Source: Asparagopsis taxiformis
Lineage: Eukaryota; Rhodophyta; Florideophyceae; Bonnemaisoniales; Bonnemaisoniaceae
DNA length: 64,000 bases
Direction: 5' to 3'
NCBI GenBank assembly: GCA_030407315.1
Contig: JALQPE010001932.1
Coordinates: forward strand, 1-64,000
The notes beneath the pieces are model-generated. The model was not told the origin of the DNA. It worked only from the letters and a program-made list of their open reading frames with translations, and made no database searches. The translations under genes and the position numbers were made by a program. The stretch's first letter is position 1; the number at the start of each line of letters is the position of its first letter. This document shows positions 3,719 to 62,989 of this stretch, piece after piece.

Positions 3719-6700
3719 CTAGCCGTCGGAAAATTCTTCTTCGTCTTCGTCCTCACTATATTCAGGATCTCCCGGCAGAATAGGCGTTATCGGCAACTGT
3801 GGAGTTGATAGCTCAAGATGAATTTTGACCCGGTGTGAGGGTTCTCTTCTTGGGAGCTTCTGTCGTCTTCATCCGCATGATTCCGAGTTGCCCTGTCTTC
3901 GGCCTACGATCTTTCTTGACCGGGATGGGAACAACTGTCTTGTGGCGAACATTGACAGGTGCCGGTTGACTTTGCCTGGCAGACCGGCGCGGAGCATTGG
4001 CGATTACTTCTTCTTCGAATCCCAACCGCCTGATGAAACCAAACGAAACATTGTCGGGAATCGGATACGACGCATTCCTGAAATACGTGTGATACCTCGT
4101 TGTCGTGTGTGTGACACAACTCTGTCGACATGCCCTGCCCCGGCATGTTGTACATGGCCGTGACCGATGAAGACTGAACGTGGCGGAACGATTACCTTCT
4201 TCAGCTTCATCGTCTTGGCGTACATATCTAATTCCAGCGCTTTGGAAAAGACGTACTTGTGGGACCCTGGACACACCCAGATAGGGAATGGGTCATCTCC
4301 GTTGGCAATAACAAAGTAACCCGGAAGTTGATCTTTGCGGTCGCGAGGAGGAACAGGGAAATCATTGTGTGGGACCTGCCGAGGACACCCCTTCCCGTTA
4401 TCAAAAACCGTCCCCCAGATGCCGGCATGACAAGTTTTTCTCCCGGTAAACCGCGCACTCCTCCAGCCCTATCAGCCGGACAAGGATTCCCAACCACACA
4501 TCCCGGCATCCGAGTGGCTCGCCACCAAACTTGAACCGGTCGATATGCGTCTCATCGTTCTCGGCATAGTCAACCAGGCAGTGGCGCGTAGACGTGAAGC
4601 GAGCCCTCCCCTCATTCCGTTCTTCTCATCTGTTTCATCGTCCCCCGTATTGACAATGGGACTCCACAGCTGCCGGTTCCCAGGGTCCTTGTGCACCTCC
4701 TCCCCCTCCCACGTTCCCAAAAAGTACCGAAACAATTCCTGGTTAGGAATTTCTTCCATGAGACCCAAGTCAAATGGGAACTTGTCCGACGCATCGAGGT
4801 AGCTTACATCCGCGAAATTGTGCATCACCGTATACCCTCGCTCGTTGATTTCCGTTCGGCAATTGTGGAAGTACGCCATACCAGTGCCGGCCTCATACGA
4901 ATCCTTCCAGCTTGTAGACATTCGCGCAACCTGGGCGAAGTCCAGCCTCGAGGGTAGAAACGTCGATGTAGGCTCACACATCGCCTTGGCAGCCATCTTC
5001 CACGCTGCGAAAAACATCGGATAGATGGTGTCGATCTCGAAAACAAGATGACGAGCCCGATGTTGTTCCGGAATATGCAGCCCCTCAAACACAGGGTCCA
5101 TCGCCACTTGTTCAAATACCTCACCTCTCTGCCCTCCTCATCGATTTCCACACTCTCCAATAACAACCTGAGCTCAATCGGGGGCAGACAGCCAACCCTC
5201 ACCGATGCGATGACGTCCGCGGGACGCTGCGCCAGATGATGCCCTTCAGCTCGGTCTTTGACTTCGAAATCGTCGGGAAGAGATGGCATCCGGTCGTCGA
5301 ACAGGAGGTCGTGTTCAGAAGGAGAGTCACGAACGATGTAACCGTCTTCATCGACTTCGACTCCTTCCGGAACAGTGAATGTAATTGTCACTTCGCGGAC
5401 CCCCTTGCTTTCGACTTGGCCCTCGTCTGCACTGTGTTTCTTCCTCGTCCGAAACGTTATGGACAGATTCTTGGTTGGAGGGAGTCGCACCAGCACGTTG
5501 GTTATCTTGGGGGACAATCTCAACGGCAGAATCGGGGGAACGGGCGGAGTCTTCGTCAACCTCATCACCGGAAGCAGTGGCTTGTTGTTGATCGGTGGGT
5601 TTATCAACAACGGCCTGCTCTTCTTCCCCGGCGGATTGTTGTACCACAACCGGCTCTTTTCCTCGAGGCGTGTGCTCCCCGTCGAGCGAAGTCGCTGTGA
5701 ACGGCGGCGGATGCCATGCGAAGCAGGCTCATGTTCGACATTCCGCTGCTTCTTGTGAGTGAGTCTCACATTGGCAGCAGAAGGGCGGCGTTTGCGTCGA
5801 GCCTTAGTCTTCTTCTTCAATGTCGGATTGAAAAACTCTTTCAAGTTCGTTTCCAAATCCTGTAAACGCGTGGCTCTCCGTCGCATTCGAACCTCACTGC
5901 TCCGGTCGTCCCCTCTATACATTGCAATGGCATTGGTGAGATGCCATTGCAACTCCTTCGGCTGCTTAACCGACCCAATTGCCATCTCTGTGCTCAGAAA
6001 TGACTTGCGCATAATACTCTTTGGGCGCCCATACGCAGCGTACAGAGAATTTGCTATTGCAGTCACGCGACGGACGTATGTATAGAAGTCGTTCACGTCA
6101 AAGCGTCCATCCGGACGTCCACCATGAGCAGGGTTCAAGTACTCCGAAAGACCACGCAAGACGAAGACAAAGTTTTCTTCCAGCAACTCGCGCACTATCT
6201 TGTGGTCCAGGTGCGTTATCCCAATCTCGTTGCGGCGCTCGGAATTGTTCAGCTCACGCAACACTTCGTCGAGAACAGGATGCTTCAGCGTTGCTATAGC
6301 CAAACGCGTCCACCGCCGGGCCGTGTTCGTTGAATTCATCATCCCCATGAACTGCGCCTCGAACAATGTTCGGATGACATCAGACTCACGCAAGTCGCCA
6401 GCGTTTTCCACGTTATTTGCAACAGCAATCGTACGGATGAACTGCTGGATGGACGACAAGATTCGAACCAGGGAGCGCTCCGTCAGTTGCGTCCCAGTCG
6501 TATGGTTCGACTCTGCACTCTTGTGGATGATCTCATGAGGCTGAAGATCACTGTCGTCCTTGCGGCGAAGGTAGTACACATCCAGAGGCTGAGTAACCCA
6601 GCGCAAGCGGTTTGCGTCCTGTGGCAGCTTGGTTCTGTGCATACGGGTGAGGCGCGTGAAGTCATCGGCAATGCTATGCATAGCATTGAGACGATGCAGT

Positions 6701-7787
6701 CCGTCGATCACGGTCACGTTCGCATTGGCATGGAATTTGCCATTCTGGAACAGACGCGTGTCGGCGGGCAGATGCGTGTTCTGCGACCTCAGCACCGTCA
6801 CAGTGATACGCGAAGAGCTCACATACCCCACAGCCAACATATTGTTGCGCAGGTCCTCCACGTGGTCTTCTTTCACATCCCGAAGGGTCACGGCCGGTTC
6901 CACTAGCTGCCTCACCAACACAGTCGCTCCTTCTCCGACGTAATCCGACGTCACAAACTTGGGCACCGTAATTTGCGTCCCCTGCTGCTCACGAATGCTT
7001 TCCGCCACCTCCGGTTCGTCGTCCACTTCGGTTACGTCCTGCGTAGTAGCTTCGGTGACGTTGGAGCGAGCAGGGTGCTTCGTGCCTCCACTGGAGGGTC
7101 TTGCAGAGCGAGCAGGGCGCTTCGTGCCTCCCGAAACCGGACGGAGCGTGCTGGATGCTTCGTACCCCCCGAACCAGTGATTTCGCCTGCCGGACCGGTA
7201 CTGGGCATCCGTCCCGAGCTGGCCTGGTTCGTCGCTGCGTTGAAGTTTGACGCTGCAGCAGGGGTACGAATGTCGCTAGGGCCATCCTCCGCAGCGGGGC
7301 GCATCATCCGAGTATCCCAAGGGTAAAACGCCGCGGCGTATGCTCCACCCATCGTCTCCGGCGGTCCCTCGGCGCCATCAAACATGTACGGGAACGGGAG
7401 GTCCTTGAACTTGTCCTTAGTCGCAATGTTGCGCACGACGATATAGTCCGCCTCGTCGGTTTCCGGCAGCTGGTGGTTGTGCAGCGTGCGCGGAAGGCCA
7501 ACATCGCCACCAGCAGTGCTCACCGAAGCCGTCCCAATATGCACAGCCGCACCGTCCACGTCCGCAAACAATTGACATCGACGCCGCGCTTGAGTCCGCG
7601 CGACTCCGCTGACGCGCTCACTTGATCGCCGCAAACCGTTGAAAACAAACTGCTGAAATGCGTATCCGCCATGGTTGTTGAGTTGGAAAGGAAAAGAGAT
7701 GGTTGACGTTGACGTATTCGAGTGATGTGGATGGTATGTTTCACGTTGAAGAATGGTCGTGAACGCCAATCGCTGGAATAATAACAC
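3719..7787 (-). pseudogene. ParB-like / 2OG-Fe(II) dioxygenase-like fusion, frame-broken
   Basis: The gene reads leftward through several frames. The N-terminal part (7,787-7,032) is low complexity. The long frame after it (about 7,110-5,115) holds a ParB/sulfiredoxin-like domain with DVKEDHVEDLRNNMLAVGY and the signature VIDGLHRLNA near 6,690, then a helical region and a basic linker. Downstream frames contain a dioxygenase-like fold: H-x-D in ETHIDRF (about 4,550), CPGSHK (about 4,260), a later histidine in GHGHVQHAGAG (about 4,150) and an arginine in TRYHTY (about 4,090), finishing with an acidic tail that stops at 3,719. The same landmarks occur in the gene at 39,964-43,597, which supports the assignment. 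At least five frame changes (near 7,115, 5,115, 4,600, 4,140, 3,840) are needed. I favour mutational decay, but some could be introns. The start is uncertain: the first frame opens with GTG, and an ATG lies at about 7,671 in another frame. R units flank it on both sides. Confidence 0.6.
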
Positions 7788-7949
7788 AATACAACCGAAA
7801 TTTTGTTAGGTACACACCTATCGTGACCGCTGGAATGCAAGACAGGCAATCGAGATGTGAGTGTCCGTTCGGAACGGGCCCGAGTCGGGCTCTCGAAACC
7901 TGACGAGGTGGCGTGAAGCAGGCAGTGTCCTTGATGTGTAATGTGTTAA

Positions 7950-8650
7950 AATTACAGCTGTCAAGCTAGGCGGGTTTTGGGCGGCTGCGAGCACCCCTTT
8001 ATCCGGGGAACACCCTGATTTGAGTTAAAATTTGGGCTATTCTCAAAAACATGCACATGTGAACATGTTTTTGAGATGGGGGTGTGCCGTACGGCACAAT
8101 CGACCCGCCCAAATCGTTGATTTTTGCAAGATTTTTTGTGCCCGAAATTTTAGAATTTCTGGGCTGGCCAGCAATGCAATCTGAGCTGGACATCCGCCGG
8201 ACGTCCAATTCAGGTTAGTCGTGTGCTGCCTACATCGACGCATTGCAGAAACTAAGCCAGCGGGCTCACTACTAATACAAAGTGCACGGAATATGAGTAA
8301 CGTGATGGGTGAGTAGTGTTTGTGTTGAGGGAGTAAGGCGGGACCATTATGAAACACGGAAGAAGATTTCTCCCTAGCATAACTTAGGCTTAAAGCCTGG
8401 AATCGACCCATCTTTCGGCGCCATTTAGCCTCACAGTTAGTGCTTACAGAAGCCAGTGATGGCCCCACTCGGGGCGGCGGCCGGTTCCTGGGGCCGTTGT
8501 GGCCAAATTAGACACCCTGATTTGAATTAAAATTTGGGCTATTCTCAAAAACATGCACATGTGAACATGTTTTTGAGATGGGGGTGTGCCGTACGGCACA
8601 ATCGACCCGCCCAAATCGTTGATTTTTCACAATTTTTTCTGCCCGAAATT
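7950..8650 (+). repeat. R units upstream of the ParB-like gene
   Basis: One complete R unit and most of a second, with the GTGCCGTACGGCAC palindrome at 8,084-8,097 and 8,586-8,599. The segment starts with ACAGCTGT, AGCTAGGC and CGAGCACCCCT, and the same order recurs at about 59,915 in element B. The orientation matches the units at 2,276-3,570, so the ParB-like gene sits between two sets of R units pointing the same way. Confidence 0.7.
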
Positions 8651-10238
8651 TTAGAATTTCTGGGCTAGCCAGCAATGTAATTAAGCCGGACATCCACCAG
8701 ACGTCCATTCTGGGTTGTTCGTGTGCTGCTCACATCCACGCATTACAGCAACCACGCAGGCGGGCCCACTGCTCATACGAAGTGCACGTAGTATGTGCAG
8801 CACGATGGATGAGTAGTGTTTGTCGTGAGAAAGTGGGGTGGGAGCATGTCGAAACAAGGACCAAAACTTTGCCCTGGCGTATTGAGCCTGAGCCTGGAAT
8901 CGATCCTTCGTGAGATGTGGCTTTGCTTACAGTTGATGCTTACAGAAGCCAGCGATGGCCCCGCTCGGGGCGTCGGATGGCTTCTTCTGGGGCCGTTGTG
9001 GCCAGATTAGACACCTTGATTTGAGTTGAATTTTGAGCCATTCTCAAAAACATGCACATGTGAACATGTTTTTGAGATGGGGGTGTGCCGTACGGCACTT
9101 TCGACCGCCCAAATCGATGTATTTTGCATTTTTTTTCTGACTGAAATTTTAGAATTTCTGGGCTCGCCAGCAATGCAATTGAGCTGGACATTCACCGGAC
9201 GTCCATTTCAGGTTGGTCGAGTATTGCACATGGATACAGTTTTGCAGCTATTTCTCAGCCCAACATTTTAGAATTTCAGGGCTGACCAGCAATGTAACCG
9301 AGCCGGACTTCCACTGGACGTCCATTTCAAGCTAGGCGAGTGCTGCACATTTGCTCGCATCGCAGCAACTAAGCAAGTGTTGAGAGCACCGAGATGCCAT
9401 GCAGACAAGAGGGAATCGGCTGCAAACGGCTTCCCTGGTCGGCGGCTGGATGTCTGGATGTGAATGGCTGCAAGCATGGAAATCTTGCTACCGCACGGCG
9501 CATACACACTGCAGCAGCACATCACTGACGCATGCGAAAGTTGGGTGCTGCAGTGCGGTTTGTTTGTGTGTTTGTGTGTGTATGACGAACCTTGTGGTAT
9601 CCCTAGGCGTGCACTGGTGCAAAAAGTTTGGACTGCCCCATCGGTCGTACTTTGACGCATTTACATGCATCGGAGAACGACCAAGGAGGTAGAGCAGCAA
9701 TCGCTGTTGGCTGAGCGTCCAAACTAGAGGGCTTTGGGCAATGGTTCTATAGCAGTCATTTAAAGGACGCCCACCGTTGATGACTGAGATCCACGGTGTG
9801 TTTAGTATTCATGGTGTTGTCCTGCATTGGCGGACGTCGAAGACGAGTACTTCCAGTGAGCGTCCAAGGTGAACAGCTCAGCAGAGGATTATGATGTGGA
9901 TGTGAAGGCATGGATGAGGCCAGCAGGAACGTTTCTGCAAGATGGGCGTGAGTGGGTAAGTGAGCGGGGAGGGGCCGCTCGGGGCGCTTGGTAGCCTCTG
10001 GGGCCGTTGTGGCCAAATTAGAATCAAGCCTATGTCCGGCGGACGTCCTGAATTGCTTTATTTTTTGGGCTATTCTCAAAAACATGCACATGTGAACATG
10101 TTTTTGAGATGGGGGTGTGCCGTACGGCACTTTTGACCGCCCAAATCGATGTATTTTTGCATTTTTTTTCTGACTGAAATTTTAGAATTTCTGGGCTCGC
10201 CAGCAATGCAATTGCGCTGGTCATTCATCGGACGTCTA
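8650..10238 (+). repeat. Left arm of a 1.6-kb inverted repeat
   Basis: This arm pairs with 13,005-14,602 on the opposite strand. I compared several stretches by eye (8,700-8,780, 9,019-9,140, 10,020-10,230) and saw only scattered single-base differences, roughly one per hundred bases. The arm contains R units with GTGCCGTACGGCAC at 9,084-9,097 and 10,117-10,130. ORFs inside it are mirrored in the other arm and look like by-products of the repeat. Confidence 0.85.
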
Positions 10239-17367: not shown

Positions 17368-17694
17368 AGGAGAGTGAAGAAGGGATGTAGGAAGATGGGG
17401 AATGAAGCTGTGAGGTGTTTCTGGTATGTGTATATTTTGGGGCATACGATAGAAGTGAGAGTGGGTTTCAAGTGGTGTAAGATTTTGCTGACCATGTTCG
17501 TGTTTGATGTCTTGATGATGTAATGGGCTGGGGTGGTGTCGAGGAAAGCGGGGATGGAATTGGGAAGGAGCGGATTTTTGTAATCTAGGTCGTGAGGGTT
17601 CTTGCAGTATGTGCGGATGGTGGTGCATGGCGTTCGGATGGTAGGGAGAACGTGATAGTGAGGGAGATGGGTGATCGACGATATGCTGACAGGT

Positions 17695-17830
17695 ATTTTG
17701 TATTCTGGCTGGATACGTATTTCGTATTCTGGCTGGATACGTATTTCGTATTCTGGCTGGATACGTATTTCCTATTCTAACCGGGTATTTATTTCCTATT
17801 CTGACCAGATATGTATTCCCTATTCTAGAG
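17695..17830 (+). repeat. 24-bp tandem repeat in element A
   Basis: Three near-identical copies of a 24-bp unit (GTATTCTGGCTGGATACG plus TATTTC), followed by diverged copies. Element B has the same block in the opposite orientation at about 45,720-45,860. Confidence 0.8.
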
Positions 17831-47938: not shown

Positions 47939-47953
47939 CTCCCCCTCTTTGGC

Positions 47954-50900
47954 TTACTCGATTGATGACAGTGCTGACACACCCATAAGTTCTCGGAGCT
48001 TCATGAACTGAACGCGTTGCAGAGGCTTAGTCAGCAGGTCGGCTATCATTTCAGATGTTGGGCAGTAGTCAATTGCAAACATCTCCTTCAGTAGACAATC
48101 TCGGACGAAATGATATTGGATGTCGATATGTTTGGTTCGAGTTCCCGATGCGTCATTCTTGGCCATCTTGATTGAGCCTTGGTTATCGACATTGATGAGA
48201 ATCGGATCTGCGGAGCTGTTCCCGCTGCCGAAACCAACTATATTGCTGAGCCAAATAGCCTCCTTTACAGCAGCACTCAGGGCCATGTATTCAGCCTCGG
48301 AGGAAGACTGAGCTACACAGCTTTGCTTGCGAGACTTCCAGCTCACAGCTGCGCCAGCCATCATGAAGACGTAGCCGCTGGTAGATTTCCGATTTATTGT
48401 GCAGCCTCCCCAATCTGAGTCGCTAAATCCTACCGGTGATAGATCCTCTGAGGCCTTGTAAAGTACCCCAAAACCTTTAGTACCTGAAACATATCGTAGA
48501 ACGCGCTTCACAGCTACCCAGAGAGATTTGGTTGGAGTCTCGACGAACTGAGCAAGTCTTCCGACTGCAAACGCGATGTCAGGACGAGTTCCCACAGCTA
48601 GATACATTAGGCTTCCAATGGCTTTGCGGTAGAGTGTGGAGTCAATTGCCTCTGTTTCGGTATCCCCAATCGAGATCTGAGCTTGCATTGGAGTTGTAAC
48701 AGGGCTGGAGTTTTCCATTCCGAATCGTTCCAATACCTTTTCGGCGTATCGGGTTTGATTCAAGTGCAACAGCCCTCTGGAAGGGTCTCGTACAATTTAT
48801 AGTCCAAGGCACACTCGAGCTCTGCCACAGTCTTTCATCTCGAAGCGTTTGCAGAACTCTTCCTTTAGTTCGTCCAATAAGTCTCTGCTGCTAGAGGCCA
48901 GCAACAAATCATCCACGTAAAGTGCAATGATCATCATAGAATCCTTACTGTTCCTAACATAGAAGCATGGATCGTACGGGGAGCTCTGGAATGTGAGTTC
49001 AGATATGAGAAACTCGTCAATTTTAGCGTGCCACTGCCTTGGAGCCTGTTTGAGACCGTAAAGTGCTTTCTGAAGTTTACAGACATGGTTGGGATACGCT
49101 GGACTCACAAACCCCTCAGGCTGCTCCATGTATATTTCTTGTTCGAGGTCACCATAGAGAAAGGCTGTCTTCACATCCATCTGATCGCAGAAAAGATCGT
49201 GATGAACAGTCAGAGCGAAGAACATGCGTAGAGTGCAGAACTTGACAACAGGTGCGTATGTTTCGGCATAGTCAATGCCATATTTCTGCTCGAATCCTCG
49301 CGTTACGAGCCGAGCTTTATGCTTTATTGAGTGCTCTCCGTTGTCGTTGATGATATCTTTGCGTTTGAAGACCCATTTTGAAGAAAGAAGGTTGACAGCT
49401 TCACTGCGGGGGACCAGAATCCAAGTGCGATTTGCATGGAGAGAATCCATTTCGGATTGGATTGCTTCGATCCATAGACCTTTCTCCTCCCCCTTGGTCA
49501 CCTCAGTGAAGGTGAGGAGGTGTTCTGGAGTGGAATCAGCCGCAGCAGAAACGATGGCAGTGGTTTTCCACCATTCACCCGGAGGTTTTCGAGCACGGGA
49601 AGATTTTCGAGGAGCATTCATAATGGAAACGTCAGGTCCTGAAGCAGATGTGGGTGGAGGAGATTGTGGCTGTGATGTGATATGTTCAGTAGAGGGACTT
49701 GAGGGTGGAGAGGGAGGAGAGTTCTTTTGTGTACGAGAACCTGGAGAGTTCTCAGATGTGTGGTTCTCAAAAGTCTCATAAGAGAAAGTGTCAAATTCTG
49801 TGTAGTCAGACTCCTTAGTCACCGTTTTCGATTTCGTCTCGTCGAAGATCACATCTCGAGACACTACTATTTTCTCATTTGTAAAGTCCCATAACTTGTA
49901 TGCTTTCTGTGCTTCTGCGTACCCAAGCATTATCGCTTTGACTGAACGGTAGTCTAGCGTCTGTAGATGTTTATCTGGAATTTTATACCAGCAATTACTG
50001 CCGAACGTGCGCAAGTGCGCGATGTTTGGTTTTCGGCCGTGCCAGATTTCAAAAGGAGTCGTTCCAGATGGAAGAGAACGACTAGTAACTCGATTACGAA
50101 TGTAGGCAGCACAAGAGAGTGCCTCTGCCCAGAACTCCAATGGAGTAGAGTTGTGATGAAGCATGGTTCGAATGTGATCCTTCAGAGTTCGATTCATACG
50201 TTCTGCTACGCCGTTCTGTTGTGGAGTGTATGCACAAGTCGTCTGCCGTTTGATGCCTTTCATTTCAAGGAAAGAGCAGAACTCATTGGAGAAATATTCT
50301 CCCCCTCCGTCGGAGCGTAATTGACGAAGTACTCGCCCTGTTTGTGTTTCAGCCAAGCACAGAAATCGCTGGAATGCATCGAAGCAATCAGACTTCCGAT
50401 GCAACGGATAGACAGTGAGCCAACGAGACTTGTCGTCAATGAAAGTAACGAAATATCGAGCTCCCCCTTTTGAGCGTGGTTCTATAGGCCCTGCTAGGTC
50501 TGTGTGAACTAAATCAAGTATCTCAAAGGCTCTCGTCAGAGAAGATTTCGGGATCGCTACACGAGGCATTTTACCGGTAACGCACCCTTCACACAGATGG
50601 GTTTTCGGGGATGAGTCGTTTTTGATTCTGAGTCCATTCACCGCGGAGATTTGTGCCATTCGAGATATTCCATTTTTGTCGAAGTGGCCTAATCGTTCAT
50701 GCCATAGTTGCAGAGAAGCAACACAAGCAGATTCTATTCCAATATCCCTTTCTTTAATAGGAACATTGAGATCGATAGCATAGAGTCCGTTACGTTTGTG
50801 TCCGGTGGCTATCGCGCCTCCGTCTTTAGTTAAGATGACTCCATTGTTCGTAAACTGTACCGATATTCCACGAGCAGTGAGAGTACTCACTGATATGAGG

Positions 50901-52030
50901 GAAAAAATAAATGACGGAACATGAAGGACATCTTTAAGTAGGTAAACTCTTTCTTTCCCGTTTACTAGGATTGAAAGTTTAACATCGCCACATCCCACAG
51001 CTAGTGCAGTTGATTTGTCTCCTAGAGTCACACTGAAAGGTTTTAATTTCTTGTAGGAAACAAACATTGTTCGATCGAACGTCATATGAGAAGTAGCTGC
51101 GGAGTCGATGTACCAGGTAGATGCGATGTGTATCTCCTTGAGCGACTCAGAATATGATGAGAGTAGACAAACATACTCTTTTCCTTCATCATCTTTGTTC
51201 TGTTCAGTGTCCATCGCTACGGCAGCCATAGAGGTTAAGTTCGACTCTCGTTGAGATATGTGAGCAGAAGTGCGAGGTTTGTTCGAGCGGGAGCGGGGAG
51301 GTCGGCCATACTTCTGCCAACAATACGGCTCTGTATGGTTCGTACGCCCACAGTGGGTACATTTCTTCCTGTTGATGTTTCCAGAAGGCTTTCCACTTGT
51401 GGAAACCAAAGCAGCTGTATCCGAAGACGACCCTCGAGGTTTCTGGATCGCAGCTCGACGCTCCTCTTGGAGAAGGAGACTGCGTACTTTGTCGAACGTA
51501 AAGGTGGGGTCCTCATCCCCGATAGCATCAAGAGCAGTAATAAGCGTTTGGAAAGACGAGGGAAGTCCATTGAGAACAGCCATGGCCATTTCTTTATCGT
51601 CAATGTTGACACCCATGGAGGTCAATACTGTTGCCATTTGTCGAACCCGGTTGATATAAACCAGCATTTGCTCACCTGGTCTCATCGTAGCAGTATAGAA
51701 GTCCCGCCTCGCGGCTAGTTTGTTGAGCAATGTATGCCTTTGATGCACGTTACAAATCTCTTGCCACATTTCTAGAGCAGTAGTGGTGTGTGCAACATTC
51801 TTGAGCATCTCGTCGGACAACGTGATTCCGATGGCCATTCGGGCAGTTTTATCCTTCCGTAGCCATTTCGAAAGCTCTTCTGGGTCTGTAGGGCGAGGAG
51901 GACAAAGTTCCGAGTCAATCATTTCGTCTACCTCTCGATGACCGAGGATGAGTTCCATCTTTTGTTTCCATGAATGGAAGTTGGAGTAGTCCAGCTTCTC
52001 TATTCGGATCCCAGATGTATTGCTCTCCAT
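47954..52030 (-). pseudogene. gag-pol: Copia element 1 gag-pol with one premature stop
   Basis: ATG at 52,030. Gag with CTHCGRTNHTEPYC zinc knuckle, protease WYIDSAATSHM, integrase (LWHERLGHFD; CEGCVTGK; HTDLAGPI; TPQQNGVAERMNR), reverse transcriptase (TAFLYGDL; YVDDLLLASSS) and RNase H (DSDWGGCTINRKSTSGYV; KHIDIQYHFVRD), in Copia order. One TAA at 48,797-48,799, in the segment after the RT active site, interrupts an otherwise continuous frame of about 1,360 codons. With identical LTRs this is a recent insertion, so the stop is either a fresh mutation, inherited from the source copy, or an error in the sequence. Confidence 0.9.
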
Positions 52031-52213
52031 CGCTCTTTAATATATTTTATCTGTTCGACCTTTCCCAAGTAGACGACTGATAGTCGTCGAGGACCAAGCT
52101 GGGGTCTATAGGATAGAAACTTCTAGCTAAGAGCGAAGAAAGAAGGAGAACAAGTGAACAAGGTTTATGGATGCGAAATCAGCTAGATTCCTAGAGTATA
52201 GAAACGAAATTAT

Positions 52214-52635
52214 CTAATCGGAAGTGGAGGAAGAAGCTTTAGAAGCTTTGGAGATTTTGAGTGCCTTCTCAATTCCTAGATGGCGACGGCCGCGGAGGTG
52301 GTTGTCGAATTCACTTTTCGTGCGGACGATGACTCCACACGGTCGGCAAACCTTTAGACCTCCTTCTTTAAGACGTTCGACTGTCTTTTTATGTCTTGCG
52401 CCGTTGTAATGAGCGACCCTCGACTCGGCAGAATTGAGATAAACGTTGCAATCTTTGCACCTAGAGCGATTCGCGTCCTTGTGCGCAGCGTACTTCGTCT
52501 TGTTATCTCTCCTCTCGGCAATGCTATAAGCCTTCCGGAAGACGCGATCGCGGAGAGATTCTCCTTCCCGGCGAAGCCTTGGACGAGGTTCTTCAAGTCG
52601 TGGCTGAACACGATCTTCTTCGTCACTGCTAGACA
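52214..52635 (-). CDS. Met-less zinc-finger ORF in the Copia leader
   Basis: About 140 codons, upstream of gag-pol and in the same sense. The start is acidic, then Arg/Glu-rich. Two U1-type fingers follow, both C-x2-C-x12-H-x5-H (beginning RCKDC and VCRPC), the same spacing as in the Gypsy ORF at 19,439-20,313. There is no ATG in the frame. It begins directly after a splice acceptor (CTCCTGCAG) with a CTAAC branch site 22-30 nt upstream. Donor candidates on the minus strand are GTACGTT (52,725-52,731) and GTAAGTC (52,822-52,828). Expression presumably needs a spliced leader or a non-AUG start. The fingers suggest RNA binding; the role in the element is unknown. Confidence 0.6.
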
Positions 52636-52906
52636 CTGCAGGAGAAGTAAAGGCGAAAGGTTAGGAGTTATACCGATCTTACTAAGGTCTAAACCTTGAA
52701 AATGACCGAAAGATGAAAGGTATTAACGTACTTTTGATAGAGTTGATGAGACGAAAACCAATGTATTTTAGTTGATGTGTAGTGAAGGCTATAATGCTAT
52801 ACCGATCAGGACAAGGTTGCTGACTTACAAGAGCAGAACCGAGTTGAGAAAGGTTTAGACGAGCCAAGATAGAAGCAGCCGGTAGATCCAATAGGTTGGG
52901 CAAAAA

Positions 52907-52980
52907 CAGCCCAGTTGCTCAGTCGTTAATACTGTGCAGACCAAAAATTATTGGTCGTGCGTTCGAGTCCCCAACGGAAC
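52907..52980 (+). ncRNA. tRNA-like segment, antisense to Copia element 1
   Basis: TGCTCAGTCGT (52,916-52,926) fits the Pol III A box and GTTCGAGTCC (52,961-52,970) the B box, 45 nt apart as in tRNA genes. GACCAA/TTGGTC between them can form an anticodon-like stem. The acceptor and T stems do not pair properly, so I do not believe it makes a functional tRNA. It may be a tRNA-derived relic or a Pol III promoter module. A counterpart lies at 63,875-63,951. Confidence 0.5.
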
Positions 52981-53423
52981 GCCGTATTACTTTTTTCTTT
53001 GAGTTGCCTCAAGTGTCTTGAGATATTCCAAGTATGTCGCAAACTGCCAGGATGTCACCTGTAGTGATGACACAGTGTCAATGTGACAGTTATAGTTGAC
53101 AATTGATGTCAAGATGACAGAAAAGTTTTGTCCGGAGTGCGCCGAGCGGAGCGAGGCGTACAGGCGCCGGGGAGCGAGGCGTACAGGCGCCGGGGAGCGA
53201 GGCGGAGTGCAACGCGCAGAAAGAAACGAGTAAGAACGCGCGGGAAGAATGGGCAATACGAGCGAGCGAGCGAGAGGAGAAGCACGCAACGAGCGGAGAG
53301 CGTGGGTACCGAGTAACGCAAAATGAACGAGGAGCGAGGGCTGCTGGAAATATATGTTCGCGCGCGCCGGCGAAATTACTCACCACTGCGCCAAAATAAA
53401 ATTGAAACGACCACGAAAGCGTG
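52981..53423 (-). other. Copia element 1 leader, rest
   Basis: Includes GC-rich tandem pieces (AGGCGCCGGGGAGCGAGGCG) near 53,150-53,210 and ATGTCA/TGACAG-rich sequence near 53,050-53,120. Open frames here are composition-driven and I do not call them genes. Confidence 0.4.
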
Positions 53424-53437
53424 CTGGGCCCATAACC
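53424..53437 (-). other. Primer-binding site of Copia element 1
   Basis: GGTTATGGGCCCAG on the minus strand, directly after the 5' LTR; complementary to the initiator Met tRNA anticodon arm. Confidence 0.85.
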
Positions 53438-53912
53438 TGTGAGAATCAAAATGGTCGCTTACCAGTGTTTACTAAAAATTGCGAGCTCACCAGATTATTT
53501 CTACTACTGGCGAGATGCGCCAACGGTGAGTCGGACAGCCTGTTCTTGGTTTGTCCAGACAGTCTGTCGTTGCCATCACCACCTGCCAATCTGGTACACG
53601 TGTGATTTCTATCATGCCATCGCCACGTGTACATATATCATAACATTTTTCCCAGTGCCAGGACCTCAACTCGTCCTAGCATTTCTAATTACTAATTTGA
53701 ATTATGACAAACAAATTAAAACTTCTGAGGCTAGTTACTCCGTAATGGAGTGTCGTAAGAGCCCCGGAGAAGTTGCTACCCGACTAATTCGGTGACGCTG
53801 AATACAATGAGATAGGTTTCGGAGCGCTCAGAGCACTCCTTCATAGAGAAATCGAGAGTCAAAGTTTTCTCACGGAATTAGGCCTTCGAGGCCTATTCGC
53901 AGTGATTCAACA
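53438..53912 (-). repeat. 5' LTR of Copia element 1
   Basis: 475 bp, identical to the other LTR as far as I compared. Minus-strand ends TGTTGAATC and TCTCACA. Confidence 0.95.
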
Positions 53913-54326
53913 AACAACGAATATAAACATATAATCATATATATGAGAATCCATTTGCTTTCCTTACATGATCCGTGGCATATCCGCTGTAAAGCACATT
54001 CAGATTCCACGAAGTTCGGAAATAAAAAAGTTTATTATTACAAATGAATTAATTGAAAATTCATGTCCCAAGGCAGTCGTTCGTCCTTCCATGCACACGT
54101 TGCCAGCACGCAATGTGATGTAACAGTTGGAAATGATTGAACTCTCGGTTAAATTCCACCGTTGGGATGTCAGCTGGAGTGAGCACAAAACTACTACCCA
54201 CAAAACTACGAACGAACACGTTACATTCCAAGTCTCGAAAGCACCACAAAATAAAATTGGTCGCATCTGGACGGCACAGTCTCCCCTGTTCAGCTCGCAA
54301 TCCTCCCTTTTGCGTCAAAACTCGAC
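53913..54326. promoter_or_regulatory. Promoter side of the element B transposase
   Basis: Continuous, in the uninterrupted element, with the region upstream of the micro-exon gene. The same sequence, diverged, lies at about 14,790-15,120 in element A. It would be the shared divergent promoter of transposase and micro-exon gene before Copia element 1 split it. Confidence 0.45.
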
Positions 54327-57300
54327 ATGGAATGCAAGTATGAAGGATGCTTCTACTACTGCGTAGATGCTTATGCGCTCGCGCTGCATGAGCGAACGTG
54401 TCGCTACCGTTTCAACCCCTCTCCCCAACATTTCAACAACGCTCGTGTCCCTGCCGTCACCCATGAGCCTGCTCGAAACGGCGACCATGATTCCCCGCAA
54501 CCCAGCTCCCCAGACCCAGAATCTGGTCGTGCTTCCTCCAGCGACTCACCCTGTGACGCTTCACTGCCACCAACCTCAACCCCCTCCCGCGCAGACCTCC
54601 TCGTGCAATCCCTCGCCGCCAGTCTCACAACCCTCGAGTACAAGGCCGGCGCTGGCCGCGTGAGCGAAGTCATCACCATCCTACAAGACCCCGCATTCTC
54701 CCTAGAAAAGTTCAACAGCGCCGTTCGCACCGTAGAAGAATGTCGCCACGTTACCGCTTCCATGGTCGAAACACATTTCCGCACCGAAGGTTACAAGAGC
54801 CACATCATTCCAGACAAAACTGGTAAGTACTCGGCACAGCTGTACCTCCGCGACCCAGTCGACATGCTCCGCAGGCAGTTAGCACTGGCTAACGACCAAA
54901 ATACTCTCTTCCACCCCTCCCCACAGACCGCCCCAGACGGCACCGCAATATTTTCTCATCCCCTACACACAGAATTCGCGAAAACGCTGCACCAGGTTAC
55001 TAGACAGCGCGTGCAGCTCTCGGAAGATCCACAGGTCGTATGGGCAGAGGAAAATGATCCCACCGCTTCCTCCTTTGCCGGCCTCCTCCAAGTGTACTCC
55101 GACAAGAGCAGCACAAGCCTCAAGAGCTCCGCAATCGTCGCATACCCCATACACGTCACACTGCTCAACTTCTCCGCCCCCCTCCGTCGCCACTGCATCC
55201 GTACCGGCCTCACCATCGTCGGGTATCTTCCGTACATTGTTAACCCTTCGTCCAACGCCTTGTTCGGTGATGAAATGCCGACAAACTCTAGTTCTGCTAG
55301 TCGCGCTCGCAAAATTGATATTCTTCATAAAGCACTCGAAAAAGTGTTTTCGTCCCTATCCACCGCGTTCTCTTCCGGGTTCCCCTGCACAGACTCCACT
55401 GCAACTGCCCGCCAATGCTTTCCCATCCTAGCCAATTATTGCTGCGACTTTCCAGAGGCCAAAGAGCTGTCATGCACTCGCAACAGCACTACCACCACAC
55501 ATCCCTGCCACCGCTGCTACATCCCCGCCACTCAACTTGAATCCAGCGCGCCACACCAGCCCCGCTCCCTCGATGATACACGCTCTGCACGCCAAGAGAG
55601 CGCTCAGGAGCATACAACTGCTCCGCTCGAAGCTCTCTCCCTCCTCGAACAACACTCTGTCCTCGAATCGACCGCTCTTTTACCCACCAACAGTCCCCTA
55701 GACCCCTACAACATTTTCTCCTTCGAGCCTCTGCACAATCTCCACCTCGGCATCTCAAAGCTCATCAAACAGTGCATTGTCCACCGCCTCAGCTCCCCAG
55801 ACCTCACCACCACCACTGCCTCCCATTCCGGGACACCTCGCACCTTCAAGAAGGTGAAAAAATCCATCCTCGCCGGCTCAAACAGCATTCTGGCCGCTAT
55901 CGAACGCGACTACTACATCACCGGTCTTCATGTCGACTTCTCCAAGGGTGAGAAGGGCACCAATTTGAACGGCCTCTTCACGGAGGACGGCATACGCGGC
56001 ATGCTCGCAGCCAAAGACTATCACCATGTCGACATGGTGTTCCCTTTCATCGCAGCATTCATTGACACATGCTGTGACGAAGTAGATACAGCCCCCCTCA
56101 CTTCCATCTGCACGCAATACTCTGACCTCGTCGCATGGGTCATGAAACGCGGTCGCATCAAGCACTGGACTGCCGCCGAACTAGAAAGCCTCCAGAACTC
56201 CATTTCCTATTTCAAACAATCAATGCTCTCCACCCTCGGCCCATTCCACACCACAGGTCTCAAAACTTTCAAGTTCCATCTTCTTGACCATCTTCCCGGT
56301 GACTTGCAGAGATATGGCGCCCTGGAACACATTGATGCAGGCCCCTACGAACACTCGCATCTTCTGTTCAAACAGAGTTATAGGAAAACCTCTCGAAGGC
56401 GCTCCACAGCCATGGAAGAGACTATTCGCCACATGGAATTCTCCTTGGCCACTCCAACTGGTCATACCCCATCGAACACATTGGGAAACCCACGCATGAT
56501 ATCGCCCACAGACGGTGCAGTACTCGTTCGCGACGGATTCACCGTTGCACTGCACGACTTTGCCTCCCTGCTGCCCGATGCAACCCTCCTCGTTGCAGAT
56601 ATCGACGGACAGCCCGATCCTGCCACTCTTTTGCCGCTGCACAACTCCTCGTTCCCGTCTGGCACCATAACGCTATTCCAGCAACTCGGTGACACAGCTG
56701 CACAAGCGTTCCTCACCCTCGCTAGACTGCGTGCCACGGCAGAAGGCCCTCCAATACATGACATGGACATTTCCGTTACCGTGGTAAAGTCCGCCTACGT
56801 CATGGGAGGGTACGTCCCAGATGCCGACGACTTTGACCCGCACAGTGGCATGCTTCGCCCCACAAACGTGACGAGGCACAAGCAGCAGCGCGTCTTTGCA
56901 ACTTCATCGTTCGGCCCCGCAAAGAGATCGCAGTACTCCTTTGTCGTCATCTCCGGAACTGCCGATGACTACAGAACCATATGGGTAGGGCGCGTCCTGG
57001 CACTGGTACGCCTGCAGTCTCCAAACCTGTTTCAACCTGTAGAACTCGCTTTCGTTCAATATATGACCTGCTTTGCCCCAAAAACCGCTGTGGAAAAATC
57101 ACTTGGGTGCATTTGTTTAAAGTGGTCCACATGGGACCCGGACAACGGATCCGTTGACAGCAATGACACTGCATCCCACAGTGCAGGTGGTCCTTGGTTT
57201 GACCTCATTCCTGCATCTACTATATCTGGCACCGTGCACATCGTACGAAGTAACTTTCCAGTCAAGCCATTTACGAAACAAATGCACTGGTCGGACCACC

Positions 57301-57368
57301 GTTTCTATCTCAACCGCTTCTACACCAACACTGATTACCAATTCACAGATGATAATGAAGAAGAATAA
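54327..57368 (+). CDS. CACTA/Plavaka-like transposase
   Basis: Intact frame of 1,013 codons. The N-terminus has a zinc-finger-like cluster (MECKYEGCFYYC...LHERTC). Residues about 270-405 have the look of the CMC (CACTA-Mirage-Chapaev)/Plavaka core: IHVTLLNFSAPLRRH, IVGYLP, FPILANYCCDFPEAKELSC and a C-x2-C. Then NIFSFEPLHNLHLGISKL near 455-475, comparable to the LHxLxxG segment of these transposases, and AGPYEHSHLLFKQSYRKTSR near 665-690. The C-terminal 300 residues are less conserved in appearance. It would cut and join the element at its ends. I cannot assign each catalytic acid by eye. It is convergent with the coiled-coil gene (78 bp apart) and lies on the transposon whose ends carry GGACGTCC repeats. 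Confidence 0.7.
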   Translation: MECKYEGCFYYCVDAYALALHERTCRYRFNPSPQHFNNARVPAVTHEPARNGDHDSPQPSSPDPESGRASSSDSPCDASLPPTSTPSRADLLVQSLAASLTTLEYKAGAGRVSEVITILQDPAFSLEKFNSAVRTVEECRHVTASMVETHFRTEGYKSHIIPDKTGKYSAQLYLRDPVDMLRRQLALANDQNTLFHPSPQTAPDGTAIFSHPLHTEFAKTLHQVTRQRVQLSEDPQVVWAEENDPTASSFAGLLQVYSDKSSTSLKSSAIVAYPIHVTLLNFSAPLRRHCIRTGLTIVGYLPYIVNPSSNALFGDEMPTNSSSASRARKIDILHKALEKVFSSLSTAFSSGFPCTDSTATARQCFPILANYCCDFPEAKELSCTRNSTTTTHPCHRCYIPATQLESSAPHQPRSLDDTRSARQESAQEHTTAPLEALSLLEQHSVLESTALLPTNSPLDPYNIFSFEPLHNLHLGISKLIKQCIVHRLSSPDLTTTTASHSGTPRTFKKVKKSILAGSNSILAAIERDYYITGLHVDFSKGEKGTNLNGLFTEDGIRGMLAAKDYHHVDMVFPFIAAFIDTCCDEVDTAPLTSICTQYSDLVAWVMKRGRIKHWTAAELESLQNSISYFKQSMLSTLGPFHTTGLKTFKFHLLDHLPGDLQRYGALEHIDAGPYEHSHLLFKQSYRKTSRRRSTAMEETIRHMEFSLATPTGHTPSNTLGNPRMISPTDGAVLVRDGFTVALHDFASLLPDATLLVADIDGQPDPATLLPLHNSSFPSGTITLFQQLGDTAAQAFLTLARLRATAEGPPIHDMDISVTVVKSAYVMGGYVPDADDFDPHSGMLRPTNVTRHKQQRVFATSSFGPAKRSQYSFVVISGTADDYRTIWVGRVLALVRLQSPNLFQPVELAFVQYMTCFAPKTAVEKSLGCICLKWSTWDPDNGSVDSNDTASHSAGGPWFDLIPASTISGTVHIVRSNFPVKPFTKQMHWSDHRFYLNRFYTNTDYQFTDDNEEE

Positions 57369-57445
57369 ATCTAAATCGCAGCACTCTATTGATAATGTAC
57401 TACATGATAAACCTTCTAGTCAACGTCACATTTACTGCACTAATT

Positions 57446-59729
57446 TCAACCATCCTCCATTACGCCAAAACCGTTATCAGCAGTGGCTGCATGGCGCCGC
57501 TCCATGCCCCCATACTGTGGGGCATTGATTTCGACATTCAGGTTTGCACTCAGGTGTCCAGCATATGGGTCAACGACGAAAAGTTCTGCGCCAATTAGTC
57601 CTTGCGCAATCACACAATCCATTACAGCACCGAGGTTTGACGTAATATGCGATTGAATCCAATCCTCGGACACTAGAACAAGTGATGAGCAGCGGTTTAC
57701 ATCATCAACGACATGAACAATTCCAGACCCCTCTCCGCTTTGCCACACTTCAACAGCCTCTCTCGTCACAGTACGGCTTGCAAACACATGCCGTGACTGT
57801 GCACTAGTCCGCTGTTCGCTCTCGACAACGTCCGTTTCTTCCCTTGCTTGCGAGCCTTGGAGACAAGACATGCAGTACACCACCATACCAACTAATTGCT
57901 GAAAAGCTACCCCCACATATTGACTGTACCGCCTTGTAAACTCCTTCTGCCGTGCACCTCCTTTCCCCTTCGGTTCATCCAAACACTCCACAGTAGTCAC
58001 TAGCCAAGCATCCAGGCGCGCCAGCGTTAGTATGCTCGTCTCTATGTCCATTACTTGTTCTGGTCGTATCGAATAACCCCTGAAGATGTCCAGCACATTC
58101 ACAGCTACTCGGTTGTTAAACCATGCATCACCATTCACTTCCATTTCGAAGCTGTCAGGAACCATGCCTTTGCTGTATCGCAGCTCTGAGAACGGTGCCG
58201 TTCGCCACCTCCCCATATCCAAATCACCGTTGCTTTCCCGTTTCAAAAGCTTCTCAGACGCTTCGCGCTTTTGATCCTCTCGCTCGTCCATCTCAGCTCG
58301 CGTCGTCAGCATCGTGCATCTAGACATTAATTTCGTGTACCCCAGCGAACCGAACAATCTGTCCCTCGCATTACGCTTCCGTGCACTCATCACGTCGGAC
58401 AGTTTCTGCGTCACCTTCACTTTCAATTCCTTGCTCCCCGCCACAGCCTCTTGACAGCACACACGCTGCTCCTCATCGGAAAACACATCACACCACGGAC
58501 TTTGACGCAGTACGTGTCGCACCAAGTCATTCAGCAGATCACTCTCGTCCCTGTACGAAGGTGTATACCACTGCAGATTCTTGATGATATAGCCCGGAGG
58601 GGTAGCAATATATCCTACACCGTTTTCGCTCCAAAGTGTCCCTTCTACCGGCTCTACCTCGATGGTACGTCCAGTCCAACGTCTCTGCGTTTGTTCCGCT
58701 ATAGGGTCCAGCTCCATAGTCTCGTTCTTGCACCACTTTGTCAGGTTTTCCTCAACCGCCCTAAGAACTCCAAGGTATTTCACAGGAATGGCTTTCTGTA
58801 TTTTCGACTTACCGCCACCGTGATCACTGATTCTACCTGTTCTCGCAATTGCAGTAAGGCTGGCATTTTCCGCCTGCAGAGTCTTCACCTTAGCCTCCAA
58901 CGCAACAATCTCCGTGGTGAGCGCCTTGTTTGCTATGTCCTGGCTAAACACTTTTTTTTCCAGCTCCGCGATCTTCTTCTTCTGCGCATTGATGCGACTC
59001 GCCATTAAATCGATGGATTCCGGCGGATGCAACCTCTCTGCCCTCACCGTCCCCCCATCTCCACGCTATCGGGATATGATGTCCTCCATCGCCAATAGCC
59101 TGACGTCGCGGGGGCGTTACGCGCATATTTGGCACCAATGACAGTCTGTTGTGACGAGGCCCGCACTCCGGCTGCTCTCTCCCCTCAGTACCACCTGACC
59201 GCCGATGATAGTTGGCATCCTGTGAACGTTGCTCAGAAACAACATCCCTTGCCGCTATCCTCGGGTCCCTGACTGCATTACCTGCTGGGGCTGATGTACT
59301 CGGCATAGTTGGCGCAGTGGGGGTCACAGCCTCCAGTGTCTCGGGAACCCCCGGCTGGGACTCCGTCTGCAGCACCTCCGCATCTGCCAACCCGGGAGGA
59401 ACTACCTTTGCCATAGCACTCTGCCGCAATTCCAACATGTTTTGAGCCACTATCATGTCATCATCATGATGTTCACTGTCCCTGCGAGCACGCTTGCCTC
59501 GGTCAAGCCCCATCTCTCTCCGCGCCGTTCCTCCTTCCTCACTTTCTCGCTGCGGATCCCCAGTTCTGCGCCGGTCCGTCTTGCGACTACCGGACCGCGG
59601 TTCAATGCTGCCGGTAGGCCCAGACCGCTTCTTCGCACGGGATTGTCGGGCACTCGATACAGCAGCTGCTGACCGGGTTTTCTGGAGGCCCGGAGGCTTT
59701 GGAGCTTTCTTCGCAATACGCGGCGGCAT
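57446..59729 (-). CDS. Coiled-coil protein of element B, one frameshift
   Basis: ATG at 59,729. A basic, Arg/Ser/Pro-rich, probably disordered N-terminus leads to a frame change near 59,060 at a run of six G. The second frame continues with a strong coiled coil (about 58,990-58,860: INAQKKKIAELEKKVF, ALEAKVKTLQAENASL). A globular part of about 450 residues follows with no motif I recognise, stopping at 57,446. The G-run suggests either a recent indel or a sequence error; if corrected, the product is about 760 residues. A loosely similar partner, also with an N-terminal coiled coil, is the split gene at 24,854-32,264. Both lie close to a methyltransferase/SET gene, which hints at a shared accessory role. 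Confidence 0.6.
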
Positions 59730-59929
59730 AATGAAGCTTTCCCGGAAGCGATGGAAGGATTGAGTTGCACGAGATACAAAAAAGATTGCTGTATAGTGTC
59801 GGTAACCACAACGGTCTGCGATGAACGTTCAGGTCAGGTCAAGTACCGGATAATACGCCAACAGCCCAGATTGTATACGGTAGGCAGTCATCAACAGTAT
59901 TTAATGAGGTACAATTACAGCTGTAGAGC

Positions 59930-60310
59930 TAGGCCGCGAGCACCCCTATGTCCGGAAGACGTCCTGATTTGAATTAAAATTTGGGCTATTCTCAAAAACA
60001 TGCACATGTGAACATGTTTTTGAGATGGGGGTGTGCCGTACGGCACTTTCGACCGCCCAAATCGATGTTTTCTGCAATATTTTTTCTGCCCTGAATTGTA
60101 GAATTTCTGGGCCGGACAGCAATGCAACTGAGCTGGACATCCACCGGGCGTCCATTTCAACTTGGTCGTGTATTTTGCATCTGCACGCATAACAGCATCC
60201 AAGCAGTCAGGTTCACTGCTCGGACGAAGTGCATCTAGAGTGTGAACGATTGGATTTTGACAGGCGAGTACTGCTCAATAGGTTTCACCCTGGAGTAATG
60301 GTGGCTGGAC
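59930..60310 (+). repeat. R unit at the right side of element B
   Basis: One R unit with CTCAAAAACATG inverted repeat, GTGCCGTACGGCAC (60,033-60,046), TAGAATTTCTGGGC and a GGACATCC/GGGCGTCC pair, then a diverged tail comparable to 2,940-3,075. Confidence 0.7.
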
Positions 60311-60387
60311 ATGCTGCATTATATGATATACTTCAACTCTGGAACGTAGCTTTATTTGTAGTCGAAATGAAAACATCTTTCGTGACC

Positions 60388-62989
60388 CTAATTCCATGCT
60401 CTAAACGCTGTCCCATAATGAACGTAGAGCTCCTGCCCCGGACGGATATCGCGGATTGCACGTACTACAATGATCTTCGGATTTTCTAGGTCCTTCGCCT
60501 TGAGCTTCTTCCCCGTCGAACCGCTGCTGTAGTTCTCGACAAACTCGACGTTGGCCATCCGCCTGGTGTCTTCCGCCGGAGTGTCCTCACCTCGCAAATA
60601 CCGCGGGTCGTTGATGAACTGCGCCGAACAGAACGGAGCCGGAACAATCCAAATTGGATGCTCGATGTTTTCGTCGTCCTCCGCTGTTGCATACAGCTTG
60701 ATGGCATACATCAAGAATGTTTCCTTCGTTATCGCCATGTGACCCTCTCCGTACGCGAACCTCATCGACTCCTTGCTCATATCAGAGTACACAACAGTTC
60801 CGTAGTATGCACATACTTCGTCGCCAACATTAAATGTCTGTTCAGCGAAGAGCCCTCTTCCTGCATTTGGATGCTTAATCAGCGATGGTCGAACGCTCAA
60901 TTTTTTCGCAACACAATCGTGTGCCCGCATCACGCGAGGGTTTTCAGTTTGCAACCAGCGGCGCAGGGAAGGTGGCCAATAATGTACCGGTTTTTCCATG
61001 TGCTCGTGCGACGCAATCGACTCTGGGCACAGCTGCCAGAGGTACTGCCGAATATATTTCGGGAACCTCTGGTACAGGGGAAGGCCAGGTGGGGGTTCGA
61101 TGATCCTGCGTTCCCTCTGCGTACGCATCGTGACAGAGGGGGACGCCAAGAACTTTTCAGCACTCTGTTTCGCTTCTGTCGTGACCCTCATGTCAGTGTT
61201 GTTTGAAAGAATTACACGTGACATGACTGCACACAGCTTTGGAAGCGATCGTGCCACACACAATTTGTCCATGTCACTGCCAACGAAAACACGGTGCTCA
61301 GGCAAGCTCATAGCTGCTTTTCCCGTTGCGAAAGTGCCAGAGAATGGATCGACAACAATATCACCAGGCTGTGAATGCTGGCTGATCAACTCCATCATGA
61401 GAGCGACGCTCTTCTGCTCTGCACGAACTCTGACCGTAGCACCGGTTGTGCTCCTTGTTCGCCACACCATCTCATTCGAATCGATGGCGGGCATATTGAT
61501 GGTGACGTTGCACCACGCCGGGTACGTGCCGTCCATGTATCCGTGGTTCCTATAGGCCACCATCTCGCTTCCAGTCTTGAACGGAACACCTCGCTTCCAG
61601 AAGTGGATAGCGACCTCTGCCATGTTCATGCGTTGGTACCTCTTCCGCCCCGGCATTTGATAGAGGTGCCCAGGTAGTCGGACAAACAACAGAGGTACCT
61701 CGTCAACGAAGAAAACTGAATTCCGAACGACGTCCTCCTCCTCCTCGTCCTCCTCATCCGCACTTTCTTCGCCACTGTGCTGCGATGCTTCGGAGTCCGA
61801 ATTCATGGACGTAACCTCTTCTTCATCCGACCCGTCATCACTGGCAGCAGCATCGGTTGGGCCTTCTGACTGCGGTCCTTTGTACGTTTCCAAGTAATAG
61901 AACCATTCGTAGAACTGCAAAACGGAGCAGAACACGATGCCGTGGCCACCGGGGCGCAACAGCTCGTCAAACACTTCGATGCTAGCCTGCATATCTTCTG
62001 CAGTTAGCCTGTCGTACGAAGAGTTGGAATCGTTCCTCTTACGACGAACATTGTAGGGCGGATCTGTCAGAATGAGCTGAACGTTGCCCGTGATGGGCAC
62101 GTGTTCTCGGCTCTCGTCGGCACTGACCAAATCTTCGAAAGGGACGTCATACACCCGGCAATACTGACTCATTTTCGAAAGAAAGTCTTTTGCGAGAGCC
62201 TGCCCTTCACTTTCCTGCTCTTCTGTCGCATGGGGTGACGGTGACGGGGGAGACGGCCCTTGGGCAGTAAGACTGGTCCTCCCAGGTCCAAGTTGAAGCC
62301 TGGTTGTGTGTCTTGTCGACGGAACCAAACCTCTCCCTCCTGTGTTGCGACGAGTGGGAGTGTCATCAACCGGCTTGGGGACCTTTTCTGCGTCCGCGGC
62401 TTGTGGTGCCGGGCGGAGGACAGCCATAACGTCTTCGTCGAGGGTGTCAAAGTACGCTGGCAGCTTGTCCGGATTTCCGCTTGACAAGTATATTTCCAGC
62501 GCCCCCCAGCGGTCGGACTCCGGCCAGGTGTACAGGTCCGGGTTGACGATAAGAAACTGCAACCGGTCGAAGAACTTCCTCACAAGGTCCCTAAATGCAC
62601 TGTGCTGCGCACTGGTTCTTGTCTCTACTTTTCCACCATATCCATCAGGATGAGATAGGGGAGCTTTGTCGTGGTAGAGATCTAGCTTCTGCTCTATCGG
62701 TGCGAATAGACCTTCATCGAGCACGTCAAACCAATGCTCACAGCTGTCGAAAATGATGTACGGCGCCATCAACTCTTCGAAGCTGGAAAACTTTGCGGCG
62801 AAGGCCACATCGGTCCAAGCATGGTATAAAACTTGAACCACGTAACAAGCTCGATTAGTGCTTTTCCGATGGGCTGGGACGCGTGCGGCTTCGTTCCCCT
62901 CCTCGGCCGCGTCGCCTATTCGGCGACGCGGCAGGTTCTTGTTGTGATTTCGGATGATAGACAACGCTTGGAAATACATCAATACCTCG
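60388..62989 (-). pseudogene. Beta-class DNA methyltransferase / SET gene, 5' end lost to a Copia insertion
   Basis: The frame is open from the LTR junction (62,989) to 60,388, about 867 codons. After a helical region comes the methyltransferase: motif IV LILTDPPYNVRRKR near 62,060, LRPGGHGIVFCS near 61,945, and motif I VVDPFSGTFATGKAAM near 61,350, again IV before I. A run of acidic residues (about 61,735-61,800) is inserted between. The SET part (60,890-60,400) has NAGRGLFAEQTFNVGDEVCAYYG, AQFINDPRYL in place of NHxCxPN, and GQELYVHYG. Compared with 34,440-37,907 the ParB-like N-terminus is missing, exactly where Copia element 2 begins. The apparent start codon (GTG, 63,000) is LTR sequence. 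The 3' end is 78 bp from an R unit of element B. Confidence 0.8.

Follow-up and report, generated by a model that had tools for sequence, protein, structure and literature searches.

A repeated CACTA-ended DNA transposon of Asparagopsis taxiformis with a ParB-like/methyltransferase/SET fusion gene and a second ParB-like gene: a possible self-marking kit

Genes and termini of element 1

The 64,000-nucleotide stretch of the Asparagopsis taxiformis genome analysed here (C1808:1-64000 of a 141.5-Mb assembly in 3156 contigs; hereafter the window) contains a cut copy of a DNA transposon, element 1. Its gene M1 combines a ParB-like module with a putative beta-class DNA methyltransferase and a SET domain, and it carries a second type of ParB-like protein as well. 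Comparison with the flanks of ten other copies (blastn) places the window copy at 23,948–25,389 (left part, + strand, starting at the terminal CACTACGGTGTTG) and 31,293–45,289 (middle part, + strand, cut at its far edge). Between the two parts lies a Copia-type retrotransposon (25,390–31,292, +; RVT_2, 5.1e-42) with 100% identical repeats at 25,535–25,799 and 31,028–31,292. It is absent at this point in the ten other copies, where the sequence runs through.

M1 (34,440–37,907, +) encodes an intact protein of 1155 residues, and its open frame spans 34,347–37,904. The N-terminal ParB-like module (34,464–34,679, +; DGAHR) matches the PHROG family phrog_1033, "ParB-like partition protein", and this holds for 4/4 M-type members (M1 0.0014, best 9e-6). 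The methyltransferase domain (36,294–37,097, +) matches Pfam N6_N4_Mtase at 2.4e-16. Its DPPY-type motif (DPPFN) precedes the FxGT motif (DFFSGT), as in beta-class N6-adenine/N4-cytosine methyltransferases, and the fold agrees; among the 50 structure-match rows listed (VIA), most cover 615–886, so that a lack of SET or ParB chains among them carries no weight. The SET domain (37,440–37,883, +; Pfam, 4.2e-6) scores above the Pfam cut-off in M1 as well as in M2, a further methyltransferase-SET gene of the window (see below), and its core motifs are present in 7 of 8 aligned sequences. On these features it is assigned to the SET family and is predicted to be a protein methyltransferase. An earlier note, made by a model from the letters of the window, had described M1 as an intact fusion, which the open frame and the Pfam and phrog_1033 matches bear out. 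Residues 23–104 of M1 also match phrog_4272 (1.2e-6), a phage family of 764 positions and unknown function; this may point to a phage source of the module.

Gene B (39,964–43,597, −) joins a ParB-like module (DGSHR) to a dioxygenase-like part (HTDF...YHYG). The gene order is best followed in the copy on contig C2584, which reads: a 512-residue open reading frame (ORF) with weak coiled-coil-type matches, a 467-residue ORF, M1, a broken B, D2 and a 1,134-residue ORF. The 467-residue ORF, of no family, occupies 32,568–33,968 (−) in the window. D2 is an intact ORF of 1,078 residues, ParB-dioxygenase-like and a relative of gene B; it was invisible to the earlier note because the window copy is cut. 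The last ORF is termed transposase-like for a GD-P...G-H...C-x-x-C stretch recognised by eye.

Genome copy counts refer to the best-scored candidates, and a pairing not seen beyond those places carries no information. M1 is open in 39/39 scored copies, ~100% identical across 1185–1186 residues, and D2 in 43/43, likewise ~100% identical. The transposase-like ORF is open in 41/41 copies (~100% identical), with 1,134 residues in C2584 and 1285–1288 in the 40 others. Seven pairs of M1 and D2 lie 6.2–7.1 kb apart on opposite strands; the transposase-like ORF has D2 on its own strand, 1.2–1.4 kb away, in 22 cases. The genes recur tens of times with their frames open, and the notion that one element bears both protein types is supported by the joint carriage of M1 and intact D2.

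The left terminus CACTACGGTGTTG lies at the same point in 10/11 aligned copies including the window, the exception being C2260. Shared sequence continues beyond 45,289 in 8/10 other copies; one of them, C92, departs 132 bp further on, and neither C1587 nor C2081 extends to this position. Because the C2584 copy finishes atypically, in an inverted arrangement, other copies served to define the right end, which in C1830 reads CAACACCGTAGTG. The two termini form 13-bp inverted, CACTA-type ends. Longer patterns for the left and right ends gave 298+325 = 623 and 436+462 = 898 exact genome matches, respectively, and the reversed controls gave 0 in both cases. Full-length copies measure 25,264 bp (C74) and 25,292 bp (C1830). 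Ends were paired on orientation and spacing (14.4–27.2 kb), which may have mismatched some of them; a 2-bp target-site duplication accompanies 7/12 pairs (7/11 in the main set; none in C1830). Duplications of 2–5 bp are given for CACTA/CMC-type transposons in the relevant passages of PMC12730594. Element 1 is a DNA transposon with CACTA-type ends, and the carriage by mobile DNA put forward in the earlier note is supported by the inverted ends, the hundreds of exact end copies and the duplications.

Four palindromic arrays belong to the element in the window (38,184–38,608, 39,141–39,489, 43,803–44,126 and 44,668–44,904); that arrays adjoin the genes had been noticed correctly. Several further observations concern individual copies. 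In C2584:24100-28900 the right part of the element meets an inverted, 91% identical stretch head-to-head. C2260 has a second partial copy of window positions 31,293–33,018 just upstream of its element-1 copy. End pairs spaced ~14.4–15.1 kb apart at C19, C104, C192, C101, C117, C215, C10 and C212 point to a common shorter version. In the window, the sequence following the cut (45,290–45,320, GTCTGTGTTTTCGGAAGTGGACGCGGACGT) is close to that at a repeat-block edge near 746 (746–780), and position 45,290 may mark the start of a further element with this terminus.

The common module and the D-type C-terminus

Besides gene B and D2, the D-type proteins comprise gene A, from a second repeat family (3,719–7,787, −; ParB-like DGLHR and dioxygenase-like HNDF...QHAG, split over frames), and P0010, an intact public homologue of 1,174 residues that is 47% identical to the B C-terminus and 32% to D2. 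Alignment of the N-termini of four M-type with four D-type sequences by hhalign, two of the latter (A and B) deriving from the broken genes of the window, yielded a score of 43.57 (probability 83%, P 8.8e-6) across the 70 columns that surround DGxHR. Of 200 column shuffles, the highest-scoring reached 23.78, and the reversed profile 10.93. As the score exceeds the shuffles, the sharing goes beyond a motif match, and the M1-type and D-type modules are homologous. Together with the phrog_1033 matches, this sustains the earlier proposal of one ParB-like module common to a writer-type protein and another type. The D-type match to ParB PHROGs is weak (1/4 members, 0.012), and a PDB sequence search with the D-type ParB alignment returned nothing meaningful. 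In partition systems, ParB proteins act as cytidine triphosphate-dependent clamps on parS sites.

The composites of A and B align at E 7e-8 without composition correction. An H-x-D motif, a distal H and an R-x-H motif are conserved without exception in 4/4 D-type sequences (A, B, P0010 and D2; 24–42% identical to the first); for gene A, H-x-D and R-x-H come from different frames, on either side of a join made in the composite. This is the order found in Fe(II)/2-oxoglutarate (2OG) enzymes, and at motif level the D-type C-terminus is probably a dioxygenase. Alternatively, it could adopt another beta-rich or unknown fold, in which case element 1 would pair its writer with a ParB-like accessory protein and have no eraser. 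We consider this somewhat improbable. In its favour, Pfam, PHROG and PDB-sequence searches lent no support to a dioxygenase in D-type proteins, none of the four matched Pfam at E 10, TET/JBP profiles included, and the AlphaFold model of a D-type homologue is unusable (predicted local distance difference test score 36). The gene A composite had no match at 0.001 among 7999 scored candidates of a protein collection, a search possibly swamped by low-complexity words, and P0010 was the sole match of the B C-terminus at E ≤ 10 among 1111 candidates. Against it stands the invariance of the three motifs in 4/4 divergent sequences. The PE type of TET/JBP is itself reported to be very distant, in the part of PMC12730594 dealing with it. 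The possibly demodifying dioxygenase of the earlier note is supported at motif level; that note's description of A and B as ParB-dioxygenase genes is right as to the DGLHR and DGSHR modules and the common H-x-D...H, although both genes are split over frames in the window.

The second family and neighbouring mobile DNA

Two repeat blocks make up the second family. The gene A block (746–8,723, −) has ten scored genome copies with an edge at 738–748 and an identity of 91–98%; arrays of ~500-bp units adjoin the gene at 2,425–3,490 and 7,923–9,376. The other block (53,913–62,989, +, these positions being edges of the common block and not proven termini) starts at 53,913 in 14/14 scored copies, 8 of which extend to 62,989, with an identity of 99–100%. 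It encodes a Plavaka-type transposase (54,255–57,365, +; PF18759, 1.2e-24) and a coiled-coil-like ORF with weak matches to coiled-coil families (57,449–59,065, −). These are followed by a unit like those of the gene A arrays (59,872–60,244), adjoining M2 (methyltransferase and SET; 60,388–62,989, −), which is cut at 62,989. M2 is open in 50/50 scored copies, in 44 of them in frames of 1081–1084 residues, and most copies elsewhere are longer than that of the window. The cut form of the window (60,391–63,114) recurs at C1567:93990-96713, together with its 40 upstream codons of foreign origin, so either the cut form itself was copied or the stretch was duplicated.

Both blocks occur on contig C2562, ~2.6 kb apart, which, with the recurrence of the gene A array unit beside M2, suggests that they are one element. 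The family would then appear to combine a methyltransferase-SET protein without ParB with a separate ParB-dioxygenase-like gene. Four genes of one design had been proposed for the window, M2 being taken for a ParB carrier with its N-terminus lost. The module is found in M1, A and B. For M2 the proposal is not supported: the window copy is indeed cut at 62,989, but no DGxHR was seen upstream in the longer relative on C559 (three frames, one copy), where M2 starts right after an array. Judging by that copy, the ParB-like module is not universal.

The window is dense in mobile DNA, a profile scan of its ORFs revealing two Copia-type elements, one Gypsy-type element and the one Plavaka transposase. 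The Copia-type element at 47,464–53,737 has 300-bp identical terminal repeats, indicating a recent insertion. One 43-bp tandem repeat is present at both 45,413–45,592 and 17,950–18,086, in opposite orientations, accompanied by similar 24-bp arrays at 45,717–45,850 and 17,693–17,826.

Interpretation and known systems

The chances are about even, in our judgement, that element 1, a CACTA-ended DNA transposon of ~25 kb and autonomous in appearance, carries a self-marking kit. In this reading the ParB-like module would guide M1 and D2 to the palindromic arrays of the element itself, which would be parS-like, perhaps as a clamp. There the methyltransferase would place N6-methyladenine (6mA) or N4-methylcytosine (4mC), and the SET domain would methylate a histone or other lysine. 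Such marks could keep the element's chromatin open or license transposition. D2, if an Fe(II)/2OG dioxygenase, would act there too, removing or editing either host 5-methylcytosine (5mC) or the mark set by the element. For fungal transposon oxygenases an undoing of silencing has been proposed, and CcTET is reported to be active on 6mA as well as 5mC, according to the corresponding passages of PMC12730594; a single mark could thus be the substrate of both a writer of methyl-adenine and an oxygenase. A complete, self-addressed epigenetic circuit, giving chromatin control independent of the host, is a more tentative proposal, with the odds somewhat against it. In it, M1 would be a DNA-and-histone writer and D2 an oxidative eraser or editor, sharing one ParB-like targeting module, with the arrays as a parS-like address.

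Apart from the dioxygenase question and the module-free M2, several points weigh against the self-marking kit. Gene B is split over several frames in both copies examined (window and C2584). The near-identity of the copies means that the open frames may reflect recent spread alone. The SET core is degenerate in P0008, and the ParB part of M1 is weakly modelled (AlphaFold block means of 41–69 for residues 1–100). The profile search suggested in the earlier note succeeded for N6_N4_Mtase and SET, but Pfam gave no ParB match for the modules and none for the pieces of A and B. As to the transposon itself, a full 2-bp duplication is missing in 5/12 end pairs, of which 3 share one base and 2 none. 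The transposase-like ORF (1,134-residue version) has no Pfam match and, by BLASTP, no similarity to the Plavaka protein of the window (E 0.35).

By analogy with Dam, which controls some bacterial insertion sequences, the same genes could instead form a kit for the control of transposition. M1 would methylate terminal and internal arrays, thereby marking replicated or donor DNA and timing transposition, while ParB-like clamps gather the arrays; effects of the SET and dioxygenase-like parts on host silencing would be secondary. The palindromic arrays at the termini and between genes, the ParB-like module and the co-carried transposase-like ORF are all consistent with this. We hold it to be unlikely, as it leaves unexplained both the retained SET domain, with core motifs in 7/8 aligned sequences, and the second module-bearing protein.

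Origin of the repeats from a DNA virus, or from something virus-like, that became integrated is a far poorer candidate. Large genes, long frames and prokaryote-like enzymes would suit it, and viral and Plavaka giant repeats co-occur in Amoebidium, as stated in the part of PMC11244446 concerned with them. Still, the 13-bp CACTA inverted ends and 2-bp duplications speak against it, and no capsid, DNA polymerase or packaging family was detected in a scan that covered the larger ORFs of element 1, up to its right 1.5 kb, and M2; the reverse transcriptases of the window belong to the Copia and Gypsy elements. That the copy number is an artefact of collapsed or duplicated haplotypes can practically be dismissed: the assembly has 3156 contigs for 141 Mb and some element ends fall at contig edges, but flanking sequences differ between copies, and 4/10 copies (C1587, C1772, C1830 and C2584) are nested in other repeats, namely family-2 pieces, at differing points.

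If the circuit exists, a parasite's self-directed epigenetics becomes directly testable, ParB-like domains are used in a eukaryote outside partitioning, and compact locus-addressed writers and editors could follow. The debate over what 6mA and 4mC do in eukaryotes is affected as well. Among the papers listed by full-text searches, no title or abstract describes a ParB-methyltransferase-SET fusion or transposon of this kind; the literature covered included few subscription papers and not the work in which Iyer and colleagues surveyed eukaryotic adenine methylation and TET transposons.

Among characterised proteins, the beta-class methyltransferases CcrM, M1.HpyAVI and TTHA0409 are bacterial, whereas M1 comes from a eukaryote and has ParB-like and SET parts attached. 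The N4CMT of bdelloid rotifers is reported to be a gene domesticated by its host, with a chromodomain as fusion partner, and not to be borne by a transposon. M1 differs from that enzyme (PDB 8s9m, 8s9n, 8s9o) in being transposon-borne. With the phage ParB-like partition proteins of phrog_1033, the M-type members share the DGxHR module by profile match (4/4), but in element 1 the module is part of a fusion and has no partition context.

Transposons with single epigenetic enzymes are already known. As described in the pertinent sections of PMC12730594, TET/JBP genes are carried by fungal DNA transposons (Kyakuja, Zisupton, Plavaka, EnSpm and others). Element 1 resembles those of the CACTA/Plavaka group in bearing a gene for a DNA-base oxygenase, or a candidate for one, proposed in the fungal case to allow escape from silencing. 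Unlike them, it couples the oxygenase-like part to a ParB-like module, in a protein without any Pfam match at E 10, and carries a ParB-methyltransferase-SET writer alongside; the term ParB is absent from the main text of that paper. Its passages on the oomycete HarbingerS and MuDR transposons likewise describe a histone-methyltransferase-type SET gene inside a DNA transposon, but name no DNA methyltransferase or ParB-like fusion there. The Plavaka giant repeats of Amoebidium, as presented in the relevant part of PMC11244446, are similar in being eukaryotic, intron-poor gene clusters of up to 50 kb with a Plavaka transposase, and differ in that many of their genes are tyrosine recombinases; neither ParB nor SET domain occurs in the main text. 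Element 1 is a variant within this known kind, transposons that carry epigenetic enzymes, and may prove to be more than that.

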